Of a DNA stretch of 64,000 nt, positions 3,266 through 64,000 are shown in pieces (within the stretch, counting starts at the first letter, position 1; the number at the start of each line of letters is the position of its first letter). The notes beneath the pieces are model-generated. The model was given only the letters and a program-made list of their open reading frames with translations. It was not told the DNA's origin and did not search any database. The DNA comes from Cryomorphaceae bacterium BACL11 MAG-121001-bin54. Its GTDB lineage: Bacteria > Bacteroidota > Bacteroidia > Flavobacteriales > BACL11. The stretch lies in contig CAJJAH010000001.1 in the NCBI GenBank assembly GCA_905182255.1, forward strand, positions 62,001 through 126,000, read 5' to 3'. The translations under genes and the position numbers were made by a program.

Positions 3266-3676
3266 TTATTTATAATCCAAATAATTCTGTAAAATAATAG
3301 TTGCACTTACCTCATCAACAAGTGCTTTATTTTTTCTTTCTTTCTTCTTAATTCCACTAAGTAAAATACTATGCTTAGCAATCTTAGAAGTAAAGCGTTC
3401 ATCAATTTGATGAACAGAAATTTCAGGATATTTTTTCTGTAAGCGCTTAACAAAACCATTTACATGCCCAGTACTATCAGTATTACTGCCATCTAAATTT
3501 TTAGGATCACCTACGACAAAACATTCAATGCTTTCTTTCTGCACCAAATCAGCGATAAAATCATCTAATAAATGAGTAAGTACAGTCGTTAAACCACCTG
3601 CAATAAGTTGCATTGCATCAGTAATAGCAATACCTGTTCGCTTAGTACCAAAATCAATACCAAGAGCTTTTCCCAT
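3266..3676 (-). CDS. ruvX: Pre-16S rRNA processing nuclease RuvX/YqgF
   Basis: The product has 136 aa, the normal size for YqgF/RuvX. It has the RNase H-like fold signature GIDFGTKRTGIAITD at the N-terminus, with Asp8 as the first acidic catalytic residue. It also has VVGDPKNLDGS in the middle and HQIDERFTSKIA with the second acidic position, then an ALVDEVSATIILQNYL helix at the end. The family trims the 5' end of 16S rRNA precursor and was earlier predicted to be a Holliday-junction resolvase. Its ATG shares one base with the stop codon of the upstream gingipain-like gene (TAATG), which implies translational coupling to a secreted protease, an unusual partner for this housekeeping enzyme. 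Confidence 0.95.
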   Translation of the reverse strand: MGKALGIDFGTKRTGIAITDAMQLIAGGLTTVLTHLLDDFIADLVQKESIECFVVGDPKNLDGSNTDSTGHVNGFVKRLQKKYPEISVHQIDERFTSKIAKHSILLSGIKKKERKNKALVDEVSATIILQNYLDYK

Positions 3677-6600
3677 TATTGCTTTATAATCTGATATATA
3701 ACTCCTTCTGGCATTACTTTAATGGTATAGGTACCTGGTGAGTATTTCTTAATATCAAAAGAAGAAATCCCATTTTGATCTTCCATTTTTTCAATTAACC
3801 TTCCTACATTATCATATATTTCAACTCCATGATTTGTAAGATCATTAAAAGTAAGACTGAAACTACCCATAGTTGGATTTGGAAATAATTCAAAATCAAT
3901 TTTACTTTCAATTACACTAGTTGGAGCAATGTACATAGGAGGGAAAACAATGTAGTCAATCCAGGCACAATCTTGTCCTTCAGAAACTCCACCATCCTTA
4001 TCATACTCCCATCCTAAATCATGATTTCCTACATTGATTGGGAAAGAAACAAAACTCCAAGCGTTATCAATACCTGACCACTCTCCTTGCTTATTACCAT
4101 CAATATAAAATTGCAAGAAATCATAATCTTGCTCTGATGAAACAAATTTGAAGAAAGATATGTCTCCAGAAGCAGTTACATCAATACTTATGTCAAGGTG
4201 TGAAACTTCGCCATCAGGAACATAACCAGATTTTGATGAATTAACACCTTCATATATATTTGCATTATCAATTACCCAAGGATATACAGGATCATTAACC
4301 CAAGCATAATTTGTGAAATCACCTGTTTCATAATCCTCATTAATAATTCCTACTATAGCATTGAATGTATAATTGTGGTTATATACACCATCAGTTATGC
4401 TGTAAGGAAACTCAACATAAGTGCCAACCGGAGTATTTGCATCAACAGTAATATTAAATACAGTAGCTTGTTGCTGATTTATAATCATAGAAGCTAAATT
4501 TACAGATGAAGTGTTAACTGTTATATAAGAAGATAAACTACCTAATACAGCTGACAAATTATCTACATCAGCATGACCTAAATTTGTTGCATCAATTACA
4601 AGATCTAAAGTTTCACCAGCATCTAATCTTCCGTTTCCATTTCCTAAAGCCGCGTCATTAATTGTAAAAGTAGTATGATCTAATACAGGAGCATTTAACA
4701 ATACGTTAATAGTTGAATTCCAAGTATTACTTAAATTATCGGTCATTTCAAGTGTAAATTCCACTAAATGCTGATCAGTTATATTATTTGCAACTTGGAA
4801 GGTAAAAGGAACAGGAATACTTAAAATCTGTGATGGGTTAATTATACTAACTAATGCTGAATTATTAATTATTGTAATTGCTGGATCATTAGATGATAAA
4901 GTAACATTAACCGAATTTGCGTTTACTGAACCTACATTCTGAACATCAATATCTATATTAATTAACTCACTGTAATCAACCAAGGAGTTGTTATTTCCCG
5001 CAACATCATCAATTGTATTTGTTGCATAAATTACATATGGACCATTTGGAGAAATAATTTGAATAGAACCTTGATATGGCTGTTTAAATTGCTTAGTAAC
5101 TACGATATCTGCAGTACCAACATTGGCTATTGCAGAAAAAGTTAAATTAACATTACCAGTAACATCAGCTAATTGTGCATCTAAAAGTATGCCATTCATT
5201 GATATAGCTACATAAGCATTCTCTTCTGTACTAACTGACAAAGTAGTTGTACCAATAGGTGTTGCAGAAGCATGAGAAACAGAAAGCATTGTAGGAATTC
5301 CAATATACGGCATTAAAGATGGGTCTCCCATCAGATGGTAAATTTCCCAATAATATTGCTCAGAACCCCCAGCTTGCGTAACAGCTAAATTTCCTGAATG
5401 AATCATTTGCCCTGCAGTAATAAACCAATCAGCTTGCTGCTCACCATTTTCATGCATTATGCAATCAAAAAGTGCTAATCCTGTACCAGCATATGTAGGA
5501 TTTGCAGATATACTTCCATTACCAACAGCCCACCAGAAATCTTCATTCCAATAAGTATTGTTAGAACCACCGATATAACCTACAGCTCCTTTATTGTTTG
5601 CTCTTAAAAGACCCTCACCAAAACAAACTGGAACATCAAACTTATTAGACTGACAGCAATTACCCACCATAAAGCCATATTGATCATTATTTTGTAATCC
5701 TGAAATATCAGAAGTTGAAAAACTAGGATCTGACCAACCAGAAGAACCACAATGAGCTGTATAATTTGCAAAACCAACACCAGCACTCACATCAGCAATA
5801 ATAGCTGCTGAAGCTGATGACATATCAGAAGTAATTGGTGTTCCAGATCCATAAAGATAGTTATAGACCGTTAATCCATGAGCTGTATTAAAATAATTAT
5901 CTGTTCCATAATTAATTTGTCCATTCCCATATGTAGGTGCCATAGAAGCATCTACTCCAGCAACCAAGACTACCTCATCTAAAAAAGAAGGGTCAGAGAA
6001 AAGATATTTTTCATGTGTCAATGTTTTATTAACTTGCACTTCCACTTCTTCAGCAATAGTTGCTGAAAATCTCCCATAATACATTTCAGGATAAAAATCT
6101 CCTCCTCCATCAAACTCACAATAATACATATCAGATAAGTGATTACCATTATCAAAAGAAGGTACTTGAGCCTCGTCACCTACAAATAAAACATAAGTTG
6201 GAGAAATTCCATCTGAGGGATTATCATACATGTCTTTTAAATAAGTATGAATAGAAGATGTTGTATTTCCAACCAAAGAATTATTTGTGTACGCCTCAAC
6301 TACATGAAAACCTTTTTTAGTTTTCCATTGTACTAATGGTTGTAATGCAGATTGAAAAGCAGGATCAGAGATAATTACATATTTGACAGGATAAGTAGTA
6401 ATTAAATCCTTTTCTTGCATTGGCATATAATTCAAGCAACTTTTATACAAATGTTCGAATTCAGGAGAATAAAATCTTTTTTTATTCGCAAGATGTTCTG
6501 AAATATCAGTATTTTTAAAAACTACTTTCACCTCCATTTTAGTAATTACCTTAAGTTCATTAGTAACAGGATTGTATTGAAAAGGAGCAATTGAAATTCT

Positions 6601-7292: not shown

Positions 7293-10082
7293 TTATCGCT
7301 TGCATATTGATTTGTAGTCACACCACTCACAAGCCTTCACATCAGCTACCTGAGTAAAATCGTCATTCTTGATTTGACTTAAAATAAATTCTAATTGCTG
7401 CTCCACCTCAATCATAACATTAGCATCAATACTAATTACCTCCTTTTGTCGGTTTCCAATTTTTTTACTCACTTTTATTAACCCTGATTTCAAATTCTTA
7501 AATGCGAAATTACCAGCAACTACTTCCATAACCATATAGTTTGGATTCATTTTCAAATATAAATAAGCATACATCAATAACTGAAAAGCTTTTGCTTTTT
7601 TATTATTAGAAGTAAGCTCATCATATTCTATAAACGCAACTTCAGCTTCTTCAACTTTACCCGTCTTATAATCTATAATTCTTAGAATATCTCCCTCAAA
7701 ATCTACTCTATCCGCCTTTCCAATTAATTTAAAATTAAGTCCATCAACCATTATGTCATATGCCAAATTCTCCTCCTTACTAAGCAACTTGATTTGATTA
7801 TTATTTACAGTTGCTTCCTTGATTAACCGTTGTTCTAGCTTTAAAAAATCCTTTGTTAATTTTTGAGCAATCTGAAGACTTAAATAATTTTTACCTTCCT
7901 GCATTCCTTGTTTAGAAAGAGCAGCAATAAAGTTATCCTCTATCTCTCTAAGAATAGTAGGTGTAATTTCCTTTATGATTTTTTCAGTAAGCACACCAAT
8001 AGGGTAGTGTTTTTCTAACGCATCATGTACAGCAGTTCCCATAGTACTCGAATCAGCATATTCCTCCACCTGATCGTCCTCTCGAATTTTAGCCAAATAA
8101 TGATAGTAAAAGGACAAACTACAATTAGTATATTTATTTAATGCAGACGGAGAAACTCCTTTTTCGGCCCAAGCCTTAATCTCCTTTTCTAATCCTTCAT
8201 TTTTAATTGTAATAGAAGCTACATTACTAATCTCCAAATCATCTCCTTTATAAACCAATTCATTAATTTCTCCAGGATATTCTGATAACAGCTGAGTAAT
8301 AAATCTACTTTTTTCTCCAGAACCAAAATCATCTGTTACAGAATTATAAATAAGAGTGATATTGTTTGCCCTTTGCAATAATCGATAAAAATGATAAGAA
8401 TACACCGCATCACTCTCATTGTAAGTGGGTAATTTAAAGTGACGTTTCATATCATAGGGAATAAATGAATTAACTGACTTTCCTTTTGGCAATTTACCTT
8501 CATTAACGCTTAACATAATTACATTTTTGAAATCAAGTGTTCTACTTTCTAGAATACCCATTAGCTGCACCCCTTTTAAAGGTTCACCCTTAAAAGGAAT
8601 ACTCTCTTTGGCCACCAACTGCTGCATAATAATCTGCAAAGTTTTTAGTTCAATTTCAAAATTATTTTCTTCAATTAGATTTTTTAAAACTGTAAAAGCA
8701 TTGTAAAAGGTAGCTAATATTTCTGATTCAATAGAACCTTTTTTATCTACTAAAGGTAATTTCAATTCCTCAATTAACTTGTTAAGTGTTTGTAAAGAAT
8801 CATCAACACTGCTCCAAAGTTGAAATACAAGCTTTATAGCATTACTACTCATAAAATATGTGTCAATATTACGCTGAGTAACAAATACAATATTACTCTT
8901 TTTAATAAAATTCATAAACGCAATTCCATCACTTATTTTTGTAATCTTAGAAAAATATGGATGTTCTATGACTGCAATAATATCTTTATAATAAAATGCA
9001 TTTCGATTGTACTTTATTGCATGAATTTGCAATTTAAAAATTGCTTCCACTAAAGAAAAAAGAGCGGTATTTTTAAGGGGGCTACCCATGGTTACATTCA
9101 GTTTTTTTATTTCAGAAGGCAAATTATGTAACATAGGAAAAAGCAAAGCTTCATCTGCCAAAATAATAGCGGTGTTGCTATTATCCAAATCTGATACTTG
9201 AAAACCTTTAACAACCTCAGCTGCCACCTTTGCCTGAGTAATATTTTTAGGACAAGCTACCACATTAAAACTTTCCTTTATCTTATTAAAATAATTTCCT
9301 ACTCCATTAAAGTCAATTTCAGACCACCTCTGTCTTTGTTCCCTTAAAAAACTACCAGCTTCATGCTGAGGGTTATCATAATAGAAATTATCTGCATCCC
9401 AAAATACTCGAGCAATATCTTCTTTTTTTAGGTAATCAATAATTTCTTGTTCCGACTTTGTAAGTGCATTTAAACCCACAAACCAAACTTTATTCCATTT
9501 TATTTCAGAAGTAGAAATATTTTTGGCTGCAAACTTATAAGCCATACCTTGATAGGCTGTTTGCTCTTCTAAAAGTGAATCGTTAAAATGTATATACCAA
9601 TCCAACATAACTTCAAAGAAACTGATATAATCGTGTTGCATATTAGAAAGGTTATCTTCAGCCAAACTCCAATTATCGACATCCCAATTTTCTAACTCTT
9701 TAACATTCTTCAAATTCGTATATATAGACCTCGCATCTACCAAGTTTCTATCTATCTCATTGAAATCATGCAACAGAACATTACTCCAACTTAAAAAATC
9801 ATCAAATGAATCTATTTTTTTAGGAGGAAAGGCAATATAAGATTGATACAATTTAAATTGTAAGGAAATATTATCTAAAACGGTTAGACCTGAAAGTTTT
9901 TCGGTAAACTCCTCAATAGAATAAAAATCAGGAAGAAAAATAGGTTGTTTAATTTTTTGTGACAAATAGTGTTTTAAAAAAACAACAGCACGCTTTGATG
10001 GCAATACAACAGCAACTCCTTCAAGACTTGTAGGGAATTTACTAAGTAATCTATCTGCAATTTTGTCTAAGAATGCCATCAT
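7293..10082 (-). CDS. addB: AddB-type nuclease/inactivated helicase subunit, PD-(D/E)XK family
   Basis: The product has 929 aa. The C-terminal third carries the RecB-like nuclease core: GKADRVDFEGDILRIIDYKTGK gives the Asp and the D-x-K of the PD-(D/E)XK site near residues 770-800. A Cys at NKYTNCSLSFYYHYL plus three Cys at the very end (CEWCDYKSICKR) form the four-Cys iron-sulfur pattern of AddB nucleases. The N-terminal helicase-like part lacks an obvious Walker A, as expected for this subunit. Its start overlaps the stop of the addA-like gene (ATGA), so the two are translated together. Role: with AddA, processing of double-strand breaks for RecA loading. Two consecutive ATGs (10082 and 10079) are possible starts. 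Confidence 0.88.
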   Translation of the reverse strand: MMAFLDKIADRLLSKFPTSLEGVAVVLPSKRAVVFLKHYLSQKIKQPIFLPDFYSIEEFTEKLSGLTVLDNISLQFKLYQSYIAFPPKKIDSFDDFLSWSNVLLHDFNEIDRNLVDARSIYTNLKNVKELENWDVDNWSLAEDNLSNMQHDYISFFEVMLDWYIHFNDSLLEEQTAYQGMAYKFAAKNISTSEIKWNKVWFVGLNALTKSEQEIIDYLKKEDIARVFWDADNFYYDNPQHEAGSFLREQRQRWSEIDFNGVGNYFNKIKESFNVVACPKNITQAKVAAEVVKGFQVSDLDNSNTAIILADEALLFPMLHNLPSEIKKLNVTMGSPLKNTALFSLVEAIFKLQIHAIKYNRNAFYYKDIIAVIEHPYFSKITKISDGIAFMNFIKKSNIVFVTQRNIDTYFMSSNAIKLVFQLWSSVDDSLQTLNKLIEELKLPLVDKKGSIESEILATFYNAFTVLKNLIEENNFEIELKTLQIIMQQLVAKESIPFKGEPLKGVQLMGILESRTLDFKNVIMLSVNEGKLPKGKSVNSFIPYDMKRHFKLPTYNESDAVYSYHFYRLLQRANNITLIYNSVTDDFGSGEKSRFITQLLSEYPGEINELVYKGDDLEISNVASITIKNEGLEKEIKAWAEKGVSPSALNKYTNCSLSFYYHYLAKIREDDQVEEYADSSTMGTAVHDALEKHYPIGVLTEKIIKEITPTILREIEDNFIAALSKQGMQEGKNYLSLQIAQKLTKDFLKLEQRLIKEATVNNNQIKLLSKEENLAYDIMVDGLNFKLIGKADRVDFEGDILRIIDYKTGKVEEAEVAFIEYDELTSNNKKAKAFQLLMYAYLYLKMNPNYMVMEVVAGNFAFKNLKSGLIKVSKKIGNRQKEVISIDANVMIEVEQQLEFILSQIKNDDFTQVADVKACEWCDYKSICKR

Positions 10083-13000
10083 AATACTTCCACTTTTATT
10101 TCATTAGTAATATATACCAAAATTCGTTTTGTATTTTTAAACCCCATAGCTTGTAAAGCAGATTCATAATCTGTAATTTGCGATATATCTTCCTTACGCT
10201 TTCCTCCAGTTTTGTAATCTATTATTACCACTTCATCAGTATTTTTTTCAAATAACAACCTATCAGGAATGTAAGTTCTTCCATTTTCCATTAAAATTTC
10301 TTTTTCGGTTTTTACTTTCCAATTTTCATCAAAATATGGAGCTATATTTTTATTACTTAACAATTGTTCAATCGTTATTTTTAACCTTTCAGCATCTTCT
10401 TTTGAACATCTACCTAACTTGTAAAAATTCTCAACAACCTTCTCTTTCTCTTCCAAATAATGAATTTCTGAAAGAACTAAGTGTAATAGTTTTCCCCAGT
10501 CCCTTCTTGCATTTACCGAATTAATATCCCAAATTTCTTCAGCAGTATGCTTTAACGAAATAACTTCTTTCCAATCTAGTTTAGTACGTTTGGTTACTAA
10601 AAAAGAATTCTCTACTTCCTTGTTAGATTGATGCATCATATCCGCATCCCCTATTTCAATTGGGAAATTATCATCATAGGCATATAAAAAGGAATTTAGA
10701 TAACCTTTATTTTTAAAATCATCAGAAATTTTATCAGGGAAATATTTTGAAAAAATATACAAACGCTCCTTAGGTCTTGTCATAGCAACATAGAGTTTAT
10801 TTAAGCTATCCAACAAGCTCATTTCTCTCTCTTTCTTATATTGTAAACTAAAATAAGATTGCTCTAGTTGTTTATTCCCATTTATTAATGCTACAGGTAA
10901 TTGTTTATTAAAATAAGCAGAAGTATTTACCCAAATATCATTTGTTTTTTTGGTTGCCCAATCAAACGGAATCATAACAACGTTAAAAGCTAATCCTTTG
11001 GACTTATGAATCGTCATAACCTGCACTGCATTAGTTCCTTCAGGAGTTACAATTGCTTCTTTATGCTTTCTTTCTTCCCACCAAATTAAAAAATCGGAAA
11101 GACTACTTCCTTTTTTTTCAGTAAAAGCCAATACAACGTCCAAAAAGAATTGCAAATAAATATCTTCATCAAATTTAAATAAACGAATAAGCTGTTCCAC
11201 CATTTCATACAAGGGCTCTTGCAATAATTTTTCATAATTGATAAATATATTTGCTCTCTTAAGCACTTCATTAAATCCTGCTTCAGTTTTAGCTTTTAGA
11301 TTTAATGTATGTAAATTTTCGTTCGATAAAATATGTGTAAATACATATACTAAAATTACTGATTTGGGAATATCTTCTTTAGGATTTTGTAAATAACGCA
11401 ATAGTGCGATTAATGCATTCACCTTATCAGACTTACTAATTAGTAAACCTTCATTTGAAATTACTGGTATCTTTGCTAAAGAAAGAGCCTCAGCTACCAA
11501 AGCCACTTTTTTTCCACTATTACATAATATGGTTACATCTTTGTAACTATAATTGTTTTCATCGACAAGCTTATGAATTTCAGATATCATCTTTTTTAGA
11601 ATCAAATCTTTAAAATCATGTTCCTTATCACCAAAAAGCTCAATACGCACATAACCTCCATCTTTTGCAAAGTCACTTTTCTGCTTCTGATTTTCATAAA
11701 TATCAAGAATATCATTAGAAAGCAATGATTTTATATTTCCAAAAAACTGGTTATTAAATTCTACTATATTCTTTCTGCTTCTGAAATTATTCAATAAATT
11801 ATCTGATTCAAAGTGCGATTCTAATTTTCTTTCCCAATCCTTTTTAAAAAGTAAATCTTCTCCCTTATAAATTTTTGGCAATTGAGAGAACTGTTCCACC
11901 TCCCCTCCCCTCCATCTGTAAATAGATTGTTTTCCATCACCTACAACCAAACTTTTTCCATAATCCAATGAATCAGTAATTAAAGGTAATATATTTTGCC
12001 ATTGTAATAATGATGTATCCTGAAATTCATCAATTAAATAATGATTGTATCGCTCTCCTAATCTTTCATAAATAAATGAGGAGGGCTGATTGACTACCAC
12101 CTTATGTATTTTCTTATTGAACTCTGAAATTTGCTCAATATTATTTTCTTTCTTAAAAGCTCTTATTTCACCCATCAATTCGTTAAGAACAGCAATAGAA
12201 TAAATATTTTTAAGGATTGCTTTTACAGAATTATACTCAGTGAGCAAATCCATTATGTCTGTAAAAAATTGATTTAAATTAGGCTTTAGGCGCTCTACTA
12301 AGTCTTTAATTTCATCTTTTTTCCCATCTGCATACCAAACATCATTAGCCATATTCCTAATCAGTGAATCAGTAGGATTCCATTTTTCATCTTGCTTATG
12401 ACCTACATTTTCAGTAAAATACTTATAAAAAGTTCCTCTTAAAAAATGATCTTTTGTTAAACCATTAGAATCAAAAAAAACACAAACCCTATCTGCTAAA
12501 TTCTCTACATCTTGTGTTATTCTTTTTTTATCTAATTGCAAATCCATTTTAACTTGCATGCATTCCTTAACTGTAAGTATTTTTCCATCACCAAAAGCAG
12601 CAATTTCATCTTTAAATAATTGCTTGGAAAACTCTTCTAAATCTCGCTCAATATTTGTGCTTTTTCCATCCTCTGCCTTTTGCATTGCAAAGTTTACTAA
12701 CGCATTAGATAAATCACCTCCTGAATCAGACATTTTACCTAGAAGCAATCCAACAACAGGTTGAATTATTTTATAAGAATCCATTTCCAAATCAAAATTA
12801 TGCGCCAAACCTAAATCGGAAGCAAAAGTCCTAACAATTTTATAAGTAAACTTATCAATGGTTAAAATCCCTAAATCAGCATAATGGTGCAAAATATGCT
12901 TATGAACAACAGCCGCTCTTTTAAAAATATCTTCCTTATTAAAATCAGTTTTTTCTAACAACCAATCCAATATTCCGTCTTTATCCTCTTTTATTGCTAA

Positions 13001-43356: not shown

Positions 43357-43445
43357 ACATTCAATCCCTACTTTTGAACACATAAGTTATTAAATCAAAC
43401 TTAAATATAATTTTATATTAACTATGCAAGCATAAGATTTTTTTG

Positions 43446-59257: not shown

Positions 59258-60079
59258 ATGAATTTCAAAAATTTACTGTTGGCTTCTTTGTGTTTACTGT
59301 TTATTACAAATACTCAAGCGCAACAAAAAATAACTGGAAATAAAAAAGGAGATATTACTGTTTTGTGGGGATGGAATAGAGGCTGGTTTACAAATTCTGA
59401 CATTCAATTTACAGGAAATAATTACAACTTTACATTAAAGGATGTAGTTGCAAAGGACAGACAAACAAAATTTGACCCTGCAATCTATTTTCATCCAAAA
59501 TGGATTACTATTCCTCAAACTAACTTCAGAATTGAATATTTTCACAAAGAAAATTATTCCATATCAATTGGTGTTGATCACATGAAATATGTTGTTCAAC
59601 AAAATCAAGAAGTTTTAATTGATGGTAATATTGATAATTCTGGCACAGATTATGATGGTTATTATAGCAATGGAACTGTTGAAATTAATAATAGTTTGCT
59701 GAAGTTTGAACATTCCGATGGCTTAAACTATATTAATTTTGAATACAGAAGATTTGACAACTTATTGAAGTATAAAAAATGGCATTTAAATATAGCAGAA
59801 GGTTTAGGATCTGGATTTTTATTACCAAAAACTAATACTACTCTATTTAACAATAAAAGACATGATGAATTTCATTTGGCAGGATATGGATTCAATGCTG
59901 TAGTTGCATTAAATTTATCTTACAAGAGATATTTTATACAGTCGGAATTGAAAGGAGGCTTCATTAATATGCCTGACATCAGAACTACTGAATATAAATC
60001 AGATAAAGCAATTCAGTATTTTTTCTTTTCTCAACTTAACTTTTTAGTTGGTTATTCGTTTAGCTTAAGTAGAGATTAA
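59258..60079 (+). CDS. Outer-membrane beta-barrel-like protein of unknown function
   Basis: The product has 273 aa with a signal peptide (MNFKNLLLASLCLLFITNTQAQ). The rest alternates hydrophobic and polar residues in strands rich in Tyr, Phe and Asn (for example FRIEYFHKENYSISIGVDHM, SYKRYFIQSELKGGFI, YFFFSQLNFLVGYSFSLSRD). This fits a small outer-membrane barrel of about ten strands, though the final residue is Asp rather than an aromatic. It follows the amidotransferase-like gene by one base and probably works with it. Its stop overlaps the stop of the convergent acyl-CoA ligase gene in TTAA. Confidence 0.78.
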   Translation: MNFKNLLLASLCLLFITNTQAQQKITGNKKGDITVLWGWNRGWFTNSDIQFTGNNYNFTLKDVVAKDRQTKFDPAIYFHPKWITIPQTNFRIEYFHKENYSISIGVDHMKYVVQQNQEVLIDGNIDNSGTDYDGYYSNGTVEINNSLLKFEHSDGLNYINFEYRRFDNLLKYKKWHLNIAEGLGSGFLLPKTNTTLFNNKRHDEFHLAGYGFNAVVALNLSYKRYFIQSELKGGFINMPDIRTTEYKSDKAIQYFFFSQLNFLVGYSFSLSRD

Positions 60080-61707
60080 CTAAAAATAATCTTATCTCCT
60101 TCATACCAGGAAACATAATTTTTTTGGTAAATCTTTTCTATAGAATTACGTTTAATCTTCATAGTTGGAGTAAGTAATTCATTCTCTACAGTCCAATTTT
60201 CTTTAACTATAATTAAATTATGTATTTTTTCATGCCCATCTAATTTAGGATTAACTACTTGCAAAGTAGTTGTAAAACTATTAATCAAGTCCTCTCTAAT
60301 TTTTAATTTTCCTCTTTCAGAAAGTACAACTATCGCAATAGGTTGAGGAACTCCAATACCTACTACACAAACTTGCTCAATATTTTTATTAGCTGAAAGT
60401 TTCATCTCAATAGGAGATGGAGCTACGTATTTCCCTTTACTTGTTTTAAATAAATCTTTAACTCTGCCAGTAATCTTAAGAAAACCTTCATTATCTATCT
60501 CTCCTTCATCACCAGTATGTAACCAACCATTAATTATAGTTTTACTTGTCTCTTCTTCATTCTTATAGTATCCATCCATAAGAGCAATATGCTTAATCAG
60601 TATTTCTTTTCTATCTGACAATTTAACATCACAAAGTGGTAAGGCTTGCCCAACTGATCCAATATTTATATTATCATTATAACTCACGTGAGAATAACAA
60701 GTATTTTCAGTCATAGCATATGCTTCCTGAATATTAATTCCTAATCTAGCGAACCATTTAATTAGAGAAATTGGTGTAGGAGCAGCCCCTGTAAATACAT
60801 TAGTCGATTTATTAAGTCCTAATCCCTTTTTTATTTTACTTTTAATTAGTGTTGATATAATTGGAATTGAAAGTAGTACATTTAACTTATTCTGAGGTAA
60901 TTTTGTTAAAATTCCTTGCTGGAATTTACTCCAAATTCTAGGAACACCCAAAAAAACAGTAGGAGAAGCTTCTGATAAATTGGCTGCAAAAGTATCTAAG
61001 CTTTCTGCAAAATACACTTTACCTCCTGAGTATAAACTTCCCATTTGCACTAATAATCGTTCTGCGATATGGCAAAGAGGCAAGTAAGAAAAGAATGATT
61101 CGCTGGAAAAATGTAATGCCTTAGAAGCATGTGTAGTTGCAAAACTAAAATTAAAGAATTTATGCATAACTCCTTTAGGATCCCCAGTTGTTCCTGAAGT
61201 GTAAATTATTGTAGCTAAATCTTGTGGTTCACGAATAATATTTTCTTTACAGGGAGTAATCTCTTTTGTAACTTCATTCCACTTAGGATAATCTTCACTG
61301 TAAAAAGGAAAAGTAATACAAGGTAAATCAGATGGCACTCCAGGCTTCATGATAGAATAATCATCTAATTTACCAACAAATAATAATTTTGCTTCACTAT
61401 GCTTTAAAATTTTTTCTAATGATGCAGCATTTAAATTAGGGTATAAAGGAACAGATACATAGCCACTCATCATAATTGCCATATCTGTTATCATCCAATG
61501 AGCACAGTTCTTTGAAAGCAATGCAATTTTACTTCCATGAGAAAAATTTAAATCTTTAAGATATGTAGCCATTTTCCTGACTTCCATACCCACTTCCTTC
61601 CATGTCCAATTATGCCAAAACCCATTAATTGGCTGACTTAAATAAATTTCGTTTGGTTTTTCGTGCTCCCATTTATAGAGCATTTCTAATGGTGATAAAT
61701 AGTTCAT
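60076..61707 (-). CDS. Long-chain fatty acid-CoA ligase (AMP-binding)
   Basis: The product has 543 aa. The adenylation core motifs are TIIYTSGTTGDPKGVMHKF near residue 165 (P-loop), AYAMTENTCYSHVSYN near 325, and WLHTGDEGEIDNEGFLKITGRVKDLF near 405 with GKYVAPSPIE just after. A lysine near the C-terminus (PTMKIKRNSIEKIY) fits the catalytic Lys. It activates free fatty acids to acyl-CoA with ATP, cytoplasmic or at the inner face of the membrane. It is divergent from the marR-fadB-like pair, with two palindromes between, so it is probably controlled by that MarR. Chain length preference cannot be read. Confidence 0.9.
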   Translation of the reverse strand: MNYLSPLEMLYKWEHEKPNEIYLSQPINGFWHNWTWKEVGMEVRKMATYLKDLNFSHGSKIALLSKNCAHWMITDMAIMMSGYVSVPLYPNLNAASLEKILKHSEAKLLFVGKLDDYSIMKPGVPSDLPCITFPFYSEDYPKWNEVTKEITPCKENIIREPQDLATIIYTSGTTGDPKGVMHKFFNFSFATTHASKALHFSSESFFSYLPLCHIAERLLVQMGSLYSGGKVYFAESLDTFAANLSEASPTVFLGVPRIWSKFQQGILTKLPQNKLNVLLSIPIISTLIKSKIKKGLGLNKSTNVFTGAAPTPISLIKWFARLGINIQEAYAMTENTCYSHVSYNDNINIGSVGQALPLCDVKLSDRKEILIKHIALMDGYYKNEEETSKTIINGWLHTGDEGEIDNEGFLKITGRVKDLFKTSKGKYVAPSPIEMKLSANKNIEQVCVVGIGVPQPIAIVVLSERGKLKIREDLINSFTTTLQVVNPKLDGHEKIHNLIIVKENWTVENELLTPTMKIKRNSIEKIYQKNYVSWYEGDKIIFS

Positions 61708-61781
61708 TTTTTTCTTAATTGTTTTTTTTAAAAGTACACTTTTTTTAATTATTTAATACGAACAAATAATACCTCCACTTT

Positions 61782-61799
61782 TACTATGCACGCATAGTA
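61782..61799. promoter_or_regulatory. Palindromic operator candidate 1 (MarR)
   Basis: TACTATGCACGCATAGTA is a perfect 18-base palindrome. Its inner half-sites TATGC/GCATA are the same as in the second site at 61834. It lies on the ligase side of the gap, next to a near-match to a minus-strand -7 element (TATTATTTG, one base too long) at 61763-61771, where it would cover the -33 region. Confidence 0.65.
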
Positions 61800-61833
61800 T
61801 TATTTTATAAATTTGTAATCCAAAAGCTTAAGC

Positions 61834-61846
61834 TATGCAAAGCATA
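61834..61846. promoter_or_regulatory. Palindromic operator candidate 2 (MarR)
   Basis: TATGCAAAGCATA is a 13-base palindrome with the same TATGC/GCATA half-sites as candidate 1 and a 3-base centre instead of 2. It lies 20 bases upstream of the plus-strand -7 element at 61867, so a bound regulator would cover the -33 region of the marR promoter. Confidence 0.62.
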
Positions 61847-61852
61847 ACACTT

Positions 61853-61874
61853 TAATTTTGATAATTTAATTTTG
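61853..61874 (+). promoter_or_regulatory. Tandem -7 elements before the marR gene
   Basis: TAATTTTG occurs twice, at 61853-61860 and 61867-61874; both match TAnnTTTG. The second ends 23 bases before the ATG at 61898, the usual spacing here. Confidence 0.5.
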
Positions 61875-61897
61875 TCTAAATTAATTTAAAAATTCAT

Positions 61898-62326
61898 ATG
61901 GAACAAGAAGATACTATAGACTACAACATAAGAAAGACTTGGTATAATATCACCAAGATGTATAACAGAACTGCAACAGAATATATGGCAAGTATGGCAT
62001 TGGGAATGATTATATTAAATATTGATATTTCTGAAGGTACTCCTTCCACTCAATTAGGCCCAAGTATGGGAATGGAAGCTACCTCTCTATCCCGCTCAAT
62101 AAACAAACTAGAAGATGCAGGAGTTATTGAAAGAAAGGATGATCCAAATGATAAGCGTAAATCAGTTATCCACTTAACACAATTAGGCATGGACTGGCGT
62201 GAAGTAGCAAAGGGAGTAGTAATAGATTTTAACGAATCAATTCAATCACACTTTGAAGAAGAGGAAATGGAGACTTTCTTTGCAATACTAAAAAAGATAA
62301 ACAAAATTATAGATGAAAAAAAATAG
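61898..62326 (+). CDS. MarR family transcriptional regulator
   Basis: The product has 142 aa. A winged helix-turn-helix is visible: GPSMGMEATSLSRSINKLEDAGVIERK with the recognition helix near residue 65-80, then the wing DPNDKRKSVIHLTQLG. Flanking helices form the dimer interface. MarR proteins bind palindromes as dimers and are released by small ligands. The gene is followed by, and overlaps by 14 bases, a fatty-acid beta-oxidation enzyme, and is divergent from an acyl-CoA ligase, so acyl-CoA or fatty acids are the likely ligand. Autoregulation is expected from the operator candidates. Confidence 0.92.
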   Translation: MEQEDTIDYNIRKTWYNITKMYNRTATEYMASMALGMIILNIDISEGTPSTQLGPSMGMEATSLSRSINKLEDAGVIERKDDPNDKRKSVIHLTQLGMDWREVAKGVVIDFNESIQSHFEEEEMETFFAILKKINKIIDEKK

Positions 62327-64000
62327 ACACATTAATAAAGTAGCAGTTATAGGCTCTGGAATTATGGGATCACGAATTGCTTGCCATTTTGCAAATATTG
62401 GAGTAGAAGTTTTACTCTTGGATATTGTTCCTTTTGATTTAACAGAAGAACAAAAACAAGATAAAACAATAAGAAACTCCATTGTAAATGACGCTTTAAA
62501 AAGTACCTTAAAAAACAAACCCTCTCCTATATATAGTAAGGAGTTTGTAATTAGAATTACAACAGGAAACTTGGAGGATGATTTGCATAAAATTGCAGAT
62601 GTTGATTGGATTATTGAGGTAGTAATAGAAAGACTTGATATTAAAAAACAAGTTTTTGAAAAAATAGAAAAATTCAGAAAAGAGGGAACTCTAATTTCTT
62701 CTAACACTTCAGGGATTCCTATTGAAAGTATGATTGACGGAAGGTCAGATGATTTCCAAAAACACTTTTGCGGAACCCACTTTTTTAATCCTCCAAGATA
62801 TTTAAAATTATTGGAGATTATTCCTAGCACTAGAACTGACACTGAAGTTATTGATTTCTTAATGAACTATGGAGATAAGTTTTTAGGGAAAGACATGGTA
62901 CTTTGTAAGGATACTCCTGCATTTATTGCCAACAGAATTGGAGTAGCCAATATCATGTCACTATTTCATTTGGTAAAAGAGTTAGATTTAACAGTGGAAG
63001 AAGTAGATTCCTTGAGTGGACCAATTATTGGTCGTCCGAAATCTGCCACTTTCCGTACTTGCGATTTAGTAGGATTAGATACCTTGATTCATGTTGCCAA
63101 TGGCGTATATGAAAACTGCCCGGATGATGAAATGAGAAGTAATTTTGAATTACCTGATTTTATTACCAAGATGAGTAAGAATAATTGGTTAGGAGATAAA
63201 ACTCAACAAGGTTTTTATAAAAAATCGAAAGATGCAAATGGGAAAAGAGTAATTGAAGCGCTTAACTTAAAGACTTTAGAATACGCACCAAAACAAAGAG
63301 CTAAATTCGCAACTATTGGAGCAGCAAAACAAGAAGATGACCTTTTAAAGAGGTTGAAAATATTGGTAAATGGGAAAGATAAAGCCGGAGAATTTTACCG
63401 TAAATCTTTTTATTCCTCCTTTGCATATGTATCACACAGAATTCCTGAAATAACTGATGACCTTTACAAAATTGACAGAGCACTTTCTGCAGGTTTTGGA
63501 TGGGAAGTTGGTCCTTTTCAAATGTGGGATGCTTTAGATGTTGAAAAAACACTATACAAAATGGAGGAAGCAGGATACAAAGCTGCTGCTTGGGTTTATG
63601 AGATGGTAAAATCAGGAAAAAAATCTTTTTACACTACAGAAAATGGGACTTTAAATTACTATAACATTCCATCAAAAGCACAAGAGAAAGTTGCAGGAAT
63701 GGAGAATTTTATTGTTTTAGATCATATCCGTGAGAACAATACAATCTGGAGTAATTCAGGATGTAACCTTACTGATATTGGAGATGGAATTGTAAACCTA
63801 GAATGGAGAACAAAAATGAACTCTATCGGGGGAGAAGTTTTAGAAGGAATACAGAAATCCATAGAAATTACAGAGAAAAATCATAAAGGGTTGGTAATTG
63901 CAAACCAAGGAACTAATTTTTCAGTTGGAGCAAATATCGCTATGATATTTATGATGGCGATTGAACAAGAATATGAAGAAATTGATTTTGCTATTCGTGC
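62313..64000 (+). CDS. 3-hydroxyacyl-CoA dehydrogenase/enoyl-CoA hydratase, FadN-like, 3' end beyond window
   Basis: The open frame starts with ATG at 62313, inside the end of marR (14-base overlap), and runs 562 codons to the window edge. The NAD-binding loop is AVIGSGIMGSRIACHF at the start; HFFNPPRYLKLLEIIP and CKDTPAFIANRIGVANI define the hydroxyacyl-CoA dehydrogenase domain, with a second C-terminal-type domain about 350-440. From about 480 an enoyl-CoA hydratase (crotonase) domain begins (GEVLEGIQKSIEITEK, VIANQGTNFSVGANI), giving the dehydrogenase-then-hydratase order of Bacillus FadN rather than E. coli FadB. It performs two steps of fatty acid beta-oxidation in the cytoplasm. Probably an acyl-CoA dehydrogenase or thiolase follows outside the window. 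Confidence 0.93.
   Translation, partial: MKKNRHINKVAVIGSGIMGSRIACHFANIGVEVLLLDIVPFDLTEEQKQDKTIRNSIVNDALKSTLKNKPSPIYSKEFVIRITTGNLEDDLHKIADVDWIIEVVIERLDIKKQVFEKIEKFRKEGTLISSNTSGIPIESMIDGRSDDFQKHFCGTHFFNPPRYLKLLEIIPSTRTDTEVIDFLMNYGDKFLGKDMVLCKDTPAFIANRIGVANIMSLFHLVKELDLTVEEVDSLSGPIIGRPKSATFRTCDLVGLDTLIHVANGVYENCPDDEMRSNFELPDFITKMSKNNWLGDKTQQGFYKKSKDANGKRVIEALNLKTLEYAPKQRAKFATIGAAKQEDDLLKRLKILVNGKDKAGEFYRKSFYSSFAYVSHRIPEITDDLYKIDRALSAGFGWEVGPFQMWDALDVEKTLYKMEEAGYKAAAWVYEMVKSGKKSFYTTENGTLNYYNIPSKAQEKVAGMENFIVLDHIRENNTIWSNSGCNLTDIGDGIVNLEWRTKMNSIGGEVLEGIQKSIEITEKNHKGLVIANQGTNFSVGANIAMIFMMAIEQEYEEIDFAIR

Follow-up and report, generated by a model that had tools for sequence, protein, structure and literature searches.

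For Proteobacteria and Bacillus, textbooks describe the regulators of fatty-acid degradation: FadR of the gammaproteobacteria (GntR family), FadR of Bacillus (TetR family) and PsrA (TetR family) are acyl-CoA- or fatty-acid-responsive regulators of beta-oxidation genes. Within the MarR family, CouR controls a phenylpropanoid pathway. FadR and PsrA are treated in PMC5343134 and PMC9329746, and FabT is a MarR-family repressor of fatty-acid synthesis in Firmicutes (PMC9083066, PDB 6jbx). For Bacteroidota, the literature searched, with most subscription papers outside its scope, yielded neither a fatty-acid-degradation regulator nor a description of a MarR fatty-acid regulator or operator motif.

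The locus considered here is part of a window of 64,000 nucleotides, by which we mean the whole stretch of DNA that was analysed. Its source genome (G000; 1.04 Mb, 53% complete) belongs to a small-genome clade, and the closest named relatives are uncultured Flavobacteriales. A 190-bp intergenic gap (61708-61897) separates an acyl-CoA ligase gene from marR (Table 1), and the divergent arrangement of these two genes is syntenic throughout the window's family. The fadN-like gene, whose start overlaps the end of marR, encodes 796 aa in full; it scores 385 bits against the NCBIfam model Staph_FadB, below that model's cut-off. The adjacency of regulator, ligase and FadN-like enzyme, pointed out in a preliminary description of this DNA, is as described. 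Past the window, a thiolase gene comes after the fadN-like gene, then a PEP-synthase-like gene and one for an acyl-CoA dehydrogenase, the latter two named by reading the sequences without a family search. The operon order marR-fadN-thiolase-acyl-CoA dehydrogenase is syntenic, and the full operon is visible in locus L002, where the PEP-synthase-like gene occupies positions 7926-10436 (contig C1). In L080 and L087 the spacing from thiolase to acyl-CoA dehydrogenase is too small for this gene; where present, it could couple fatty-acid use to gluconeogenesis. We also note that two contig ends of the source genome (C2 1-9500 and C3 116700-126181) carry identical genes and sites in opposite orientation, a redundancy that makes the site counts for this assembly too high.

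The winged-helix domain of the MarR family is recognised in the regulator above the Pfam cut-off, and its AlphaFold2 model (pLDDT 92) adopts the MarR fold, with matches to 4lln (TM 0.85) and 3nrv (TM 0.86); the nearest structural matches include DNA-complex structures. The regulators of the FadR and PsrA type belong to other protein families. FabT shares the MarR fold and is likewise linked to fatty acids, but controls synthesis genes, whereas the window's protein is found at degradation genes; the latter scores 25.2 bits against the NCBIfam FabT equivalog model, whose cut-off is 200. CouR (PDB 5cyv) also has the MarR fold, with about 18% identity in the structural match, and its solved structure holds p-coumaroyl-CoA, a precedent for the class of CoA-thioester ligands proposed below.

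Table 1. Features of the marR locus (positions within the window)
Feature	Position	Strand	Basis
Acyl-CoA ligase (AMP-binding enzyme, FadD-like)	60076..61707	-	Pfam PF00501, 218 bits
Degenerate ligase-side MarR operator position (putative), TACGAACAAATA	61757..61768		6 of 10 defined bases retained; 28 bp before 61785 (relatives' copy 27-29 bp before the marR-proximal one)
Putative MarR operator (class 1), TAC-TATGC-AC-GCATA-GTA	61782..61799		exact core 5' of 77 of 80 marR orthologues
-7 box TAAATTTG of the marR-fadN promoter	61808..61815	+	11 bp after operator core
Class-2 palindrome TATGC-AAA-GCATA, probably another regulator's site	61834..61846		exact 20-bp offset to -7 box; family-restricted
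-7 box TAATTTTG of the second promoter 5' of marR	61867..61874	+	20 bp after class-2 palindrome, like other class-2 sites
marR, 142-aa MarR-family regulator	61898..62326	+	Pfam PF01047, 38.9 bits (cut-off 24.6)
fadN-like 3-hydroxyacyl-CoA dehydrogenase/crotonase	62313..64000, runs off window	+	Pfam 3HCDH_N, 148 bits

Two site classes upstream of marR

The gap contains two palindromes, as the preliminary description had noticed: the class-1 core TATGCACGCATA (TATGC-2-GCATA) at 61785-61796 and the class-2 palindrome TATGCAAAGCATA, with a 3-base spacer, further towards marR. Dinucleotide shuffles of the whole window give 0.09 (class 1) and 0.16 (class 2) expected matches; the chance of either site in the 190-bp gap is therefore about 3-5 in 10,000, and both palindromes are real and non-random. 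Their dimensions differ from the first account. The supposed 18-base perfect palindrome (61782-61799) is built as 8+2+8, TACTATGC-AC-GCATAGTA, with a central AC that is not self-complementary, and the separation, given as 45 bases, is 37 bp edge to edge or 49 bp start to start. The sites do not form a matched pair either: they have different spacers, lie at different distances from the -7 box (11 versus 20 bp) and are distributed differently among taxa, on which grounds a single motif was rejected. Both face marR, contrary to the assignment of one site to each divergent promoter.

The class-1 site recurs with its gene. An exact TATGCNNGCATA lies at most 190 bp upstream of marR in 77 of 80 orthologous loci (loci with named records), a palindromic operator at the regulator's own promoter as is characteristic of the MarR family, while the rest of these loci, 1.03 Mb in all, holds only 2 copies. 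A class-wide sample comprised 27 loci, almost all of them from other families; with mismatches allowed at the half-site edges, 25 of these have the operator, all with fadN downstream. Conservation in orthologous gaps, a prediction of the first account, thus holds for class 1 within the family, the order and the class, as does the placement of a MarR regulator with its own operator at a fatty-acid-degradation operon. The central bases prefer RY, and the flanks extend as TTTAY/RTAAATTT. In 66 of 78 sequences a -7 box of the Bacteroidota type (TAnnTTTG or TAnnTTCG) begins 10-12 bp past the core (exactly 11 bp in 51); given this fixed distance, the site overlays the -33 region, a repressor position. 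A match to the MarR protein occurs in 26 of 40 relatives, and most of these orthologues carry TATGCNNGCATA upstream. The operator is missing from four family members that do have marR (G014, G015, G021 and G023), and the nearest relative, G007, carries it with one mismatch (L011). Judged from these sequence comparisons, it is almost certain that the 61785 site serves the neighbouring MarR protein as its operator.

In most family members the marR-ligase gap contains two TATGCNNGCATA copies, 27-29 bp apart. The ligase-side copy is degenerate in the source genome, unlike in its relatives, and the ligase may here be uncoupled from MarR or controlled from 61785. The preliminary description's reading of the 61834 palindrome as a second MarR site is not supported, the palindrome being of a separate class. 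A further class-1-like site, TATGCAAGCATA, is located at 43423-43434, with TACTTTTG 11 bp later, in front of a gene for a 1307-aa secreted protein (SprB, GEVED, PKD and CHU_C domains); its central AA is outside the RY preference, and the arrangement is kept in G007 (L058). Class-1 matches inside genes (L055, L056) were treated as chance.

Class-2 sites, compiled from L004, L006, L007, L009, L060-L079 and L160-L189, are mostly TACTATGCTnAGCATAGTA, with TAnnTTTG at exactly offset 20 in 19 of those fetched. Of 31 genomes in the window's family, 26 have the full architecture, against 0 of 165 genomes from other families; the control gave 0 matches. Among the 80 marR loci, no class-2 site occurs within 300 bp before marR or elsewhere in the 1.03 Mb. 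The architecture is also found in G013 and G004, where the search found no marR; G013 is also without a close fadN, whereas in G004 fadN sits at a contig end, and marR may simply be unassembled there. The genes downstream encode mainly lipoproteins and exported proteins, as judged by their N-termini. The 61834 site fits this class exactly and would be centred near -42, in an activator-like position; its segment has a counterpart only in the closest relative, where one half-site is changed (L011). As a candidate class-2 regulator, the histidine kinase/NarL-type pair that G004 carries downstream of a class-2 promoter was rejected, because several class-2-rich genomes, such as G012 and G024, lack homologues. 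An insertion-sequence repeat, considered because some sites lie at contig ends, was not supported either: the flanks differ, and only the palindrome, the spacing and the -7 box are common.

Reach of the class-1 operator

A search for the operator together with the -7 box matched 68 of 196 genomes of the order, and the control pattern none. Most fetched matches precede marR; others precede acyl-CoA dehydrogenases of the operon kind and a fadN without marR in front, so that the operator is found 5' of beta-oxidation genes at three kinds of promoter (marR-fadN, acyl-CoA dehydrogenase and fadN) in several families. Further fetched matches lie before genes for patatin-like phospholipases (two families), for a secretory lipase and for a nitronate monooxygenase (NMO), and before those for a small number of unrelated or secreted proteins. 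This distribution lends good support to a lipid-catabolism regulon, and the term self-contained, applied earlier to the switch, is too narrow. In the window's genus, extra class-1 copies precede a BD-FAE-type esterase, the lipase and the NMO gene; their palindromes are conserved, while their flanks drift. G013 (99% complete) and G009 have no recognisable marR or close fadN, yet have esterase, lipase or NMO genes with class-1 sites, which may be relics or sites of another protein. In G013 the gene for the secretory lipase seems to be broken into fragments (L050, around 3400-3800), which, together with the absent marR and close fadN, suggests a recent loss of lipid use.

Proposed mechanism and alternatives

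We propose, with a probability of roughly 85%, that MarR is an autoregulating repressor of fatty-acid beta-oxidation that acts through 61785 and is released by an acyl-CoA-type ligand, and that 61834 is the class-2 site of another factor. A MarR dimer would bind TATGC-RY-GCATA at 61785, cover the -33 region of the marR-fadN-thiolase promoter and thereby keep its own operon off, until a fatty acid or a ligand derived from one, most likely long-chain acyl-CoA, relieves the repression. The regulon would extend past the operon to lipid-releasing and acyl-CoA-oxidising genes. At 61834 a separate, probably activating factor would drive a second marR promoter, one presumably acquired in the sub-lineage of the source genome.

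It is improbable that both palindromes are MarR sites, with 2- and 3-base spacers tolerated and each controlling one divergent promoter. The half-sites TATGC/GCATA are identical, and relatives do have two class-1 copies in the gap, one of them towards the ligase; however, the class-2 site is missing from all 80 marR loci, has a fixed promoter geometry of its own that faces marR and not the ligase, and is restricted to one family, where it also occurs in genomes without a matching marR. Slightly less probable still is that MarR activates the operon or acts as its dual regulator. MarR proteins can activate, and the relatives' ligase-side copy may precede a weak -7-like box by about 21 bp, a spacing like that of an activator, but that box is uncertain, and at the marR-fadN promoter the position over -33 in nearly all loci is that of a classical repressor.

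Palindromes are common between genes, and the contig-end location of some class-2 sites could also point to incidental sequence (chance, terminator or repeat DNA) without a regulatory role. We consider this highly implausible in view of the shuffle rates, the fixed distances to the -7 boxes, the zero control matches and the conservation upstream of marR, which across families refutes it. Repression by MarR from 61785 is retained as the preferred reading; the preliminary description had found a genuine, widely conserved regulator-operator pair, but had paired it with a look-alike of the other site class.

A precise operator motif with a fixed promoter geometry permits the regulon to be predicted and tested directly in many marine Flavobacteriaceae that can be cultured (Arenibacter, Maribacter, Zobellia, Muricauda, Flavobacterium), a group with a major part in breaking down organic matter. 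Genes with TATGCRYGCATA are predicted MarR targets and, if the repressor reading is true, would be derepressed without MarR; the class-2 promoter provides a second regulon to chase. A broader proposal, to which we give somewhat less than even odds, is that a MarR lipid-catabolism regulon exists throughout the class Bacteroidia and that in one sub-lineage marR was captured by a clade-specific class-2 promoter, with the site in activator position and otherwise found mostly at genes for exported proteins. If true, this capture of marR would wire fat degradation to the surface-protein programme.
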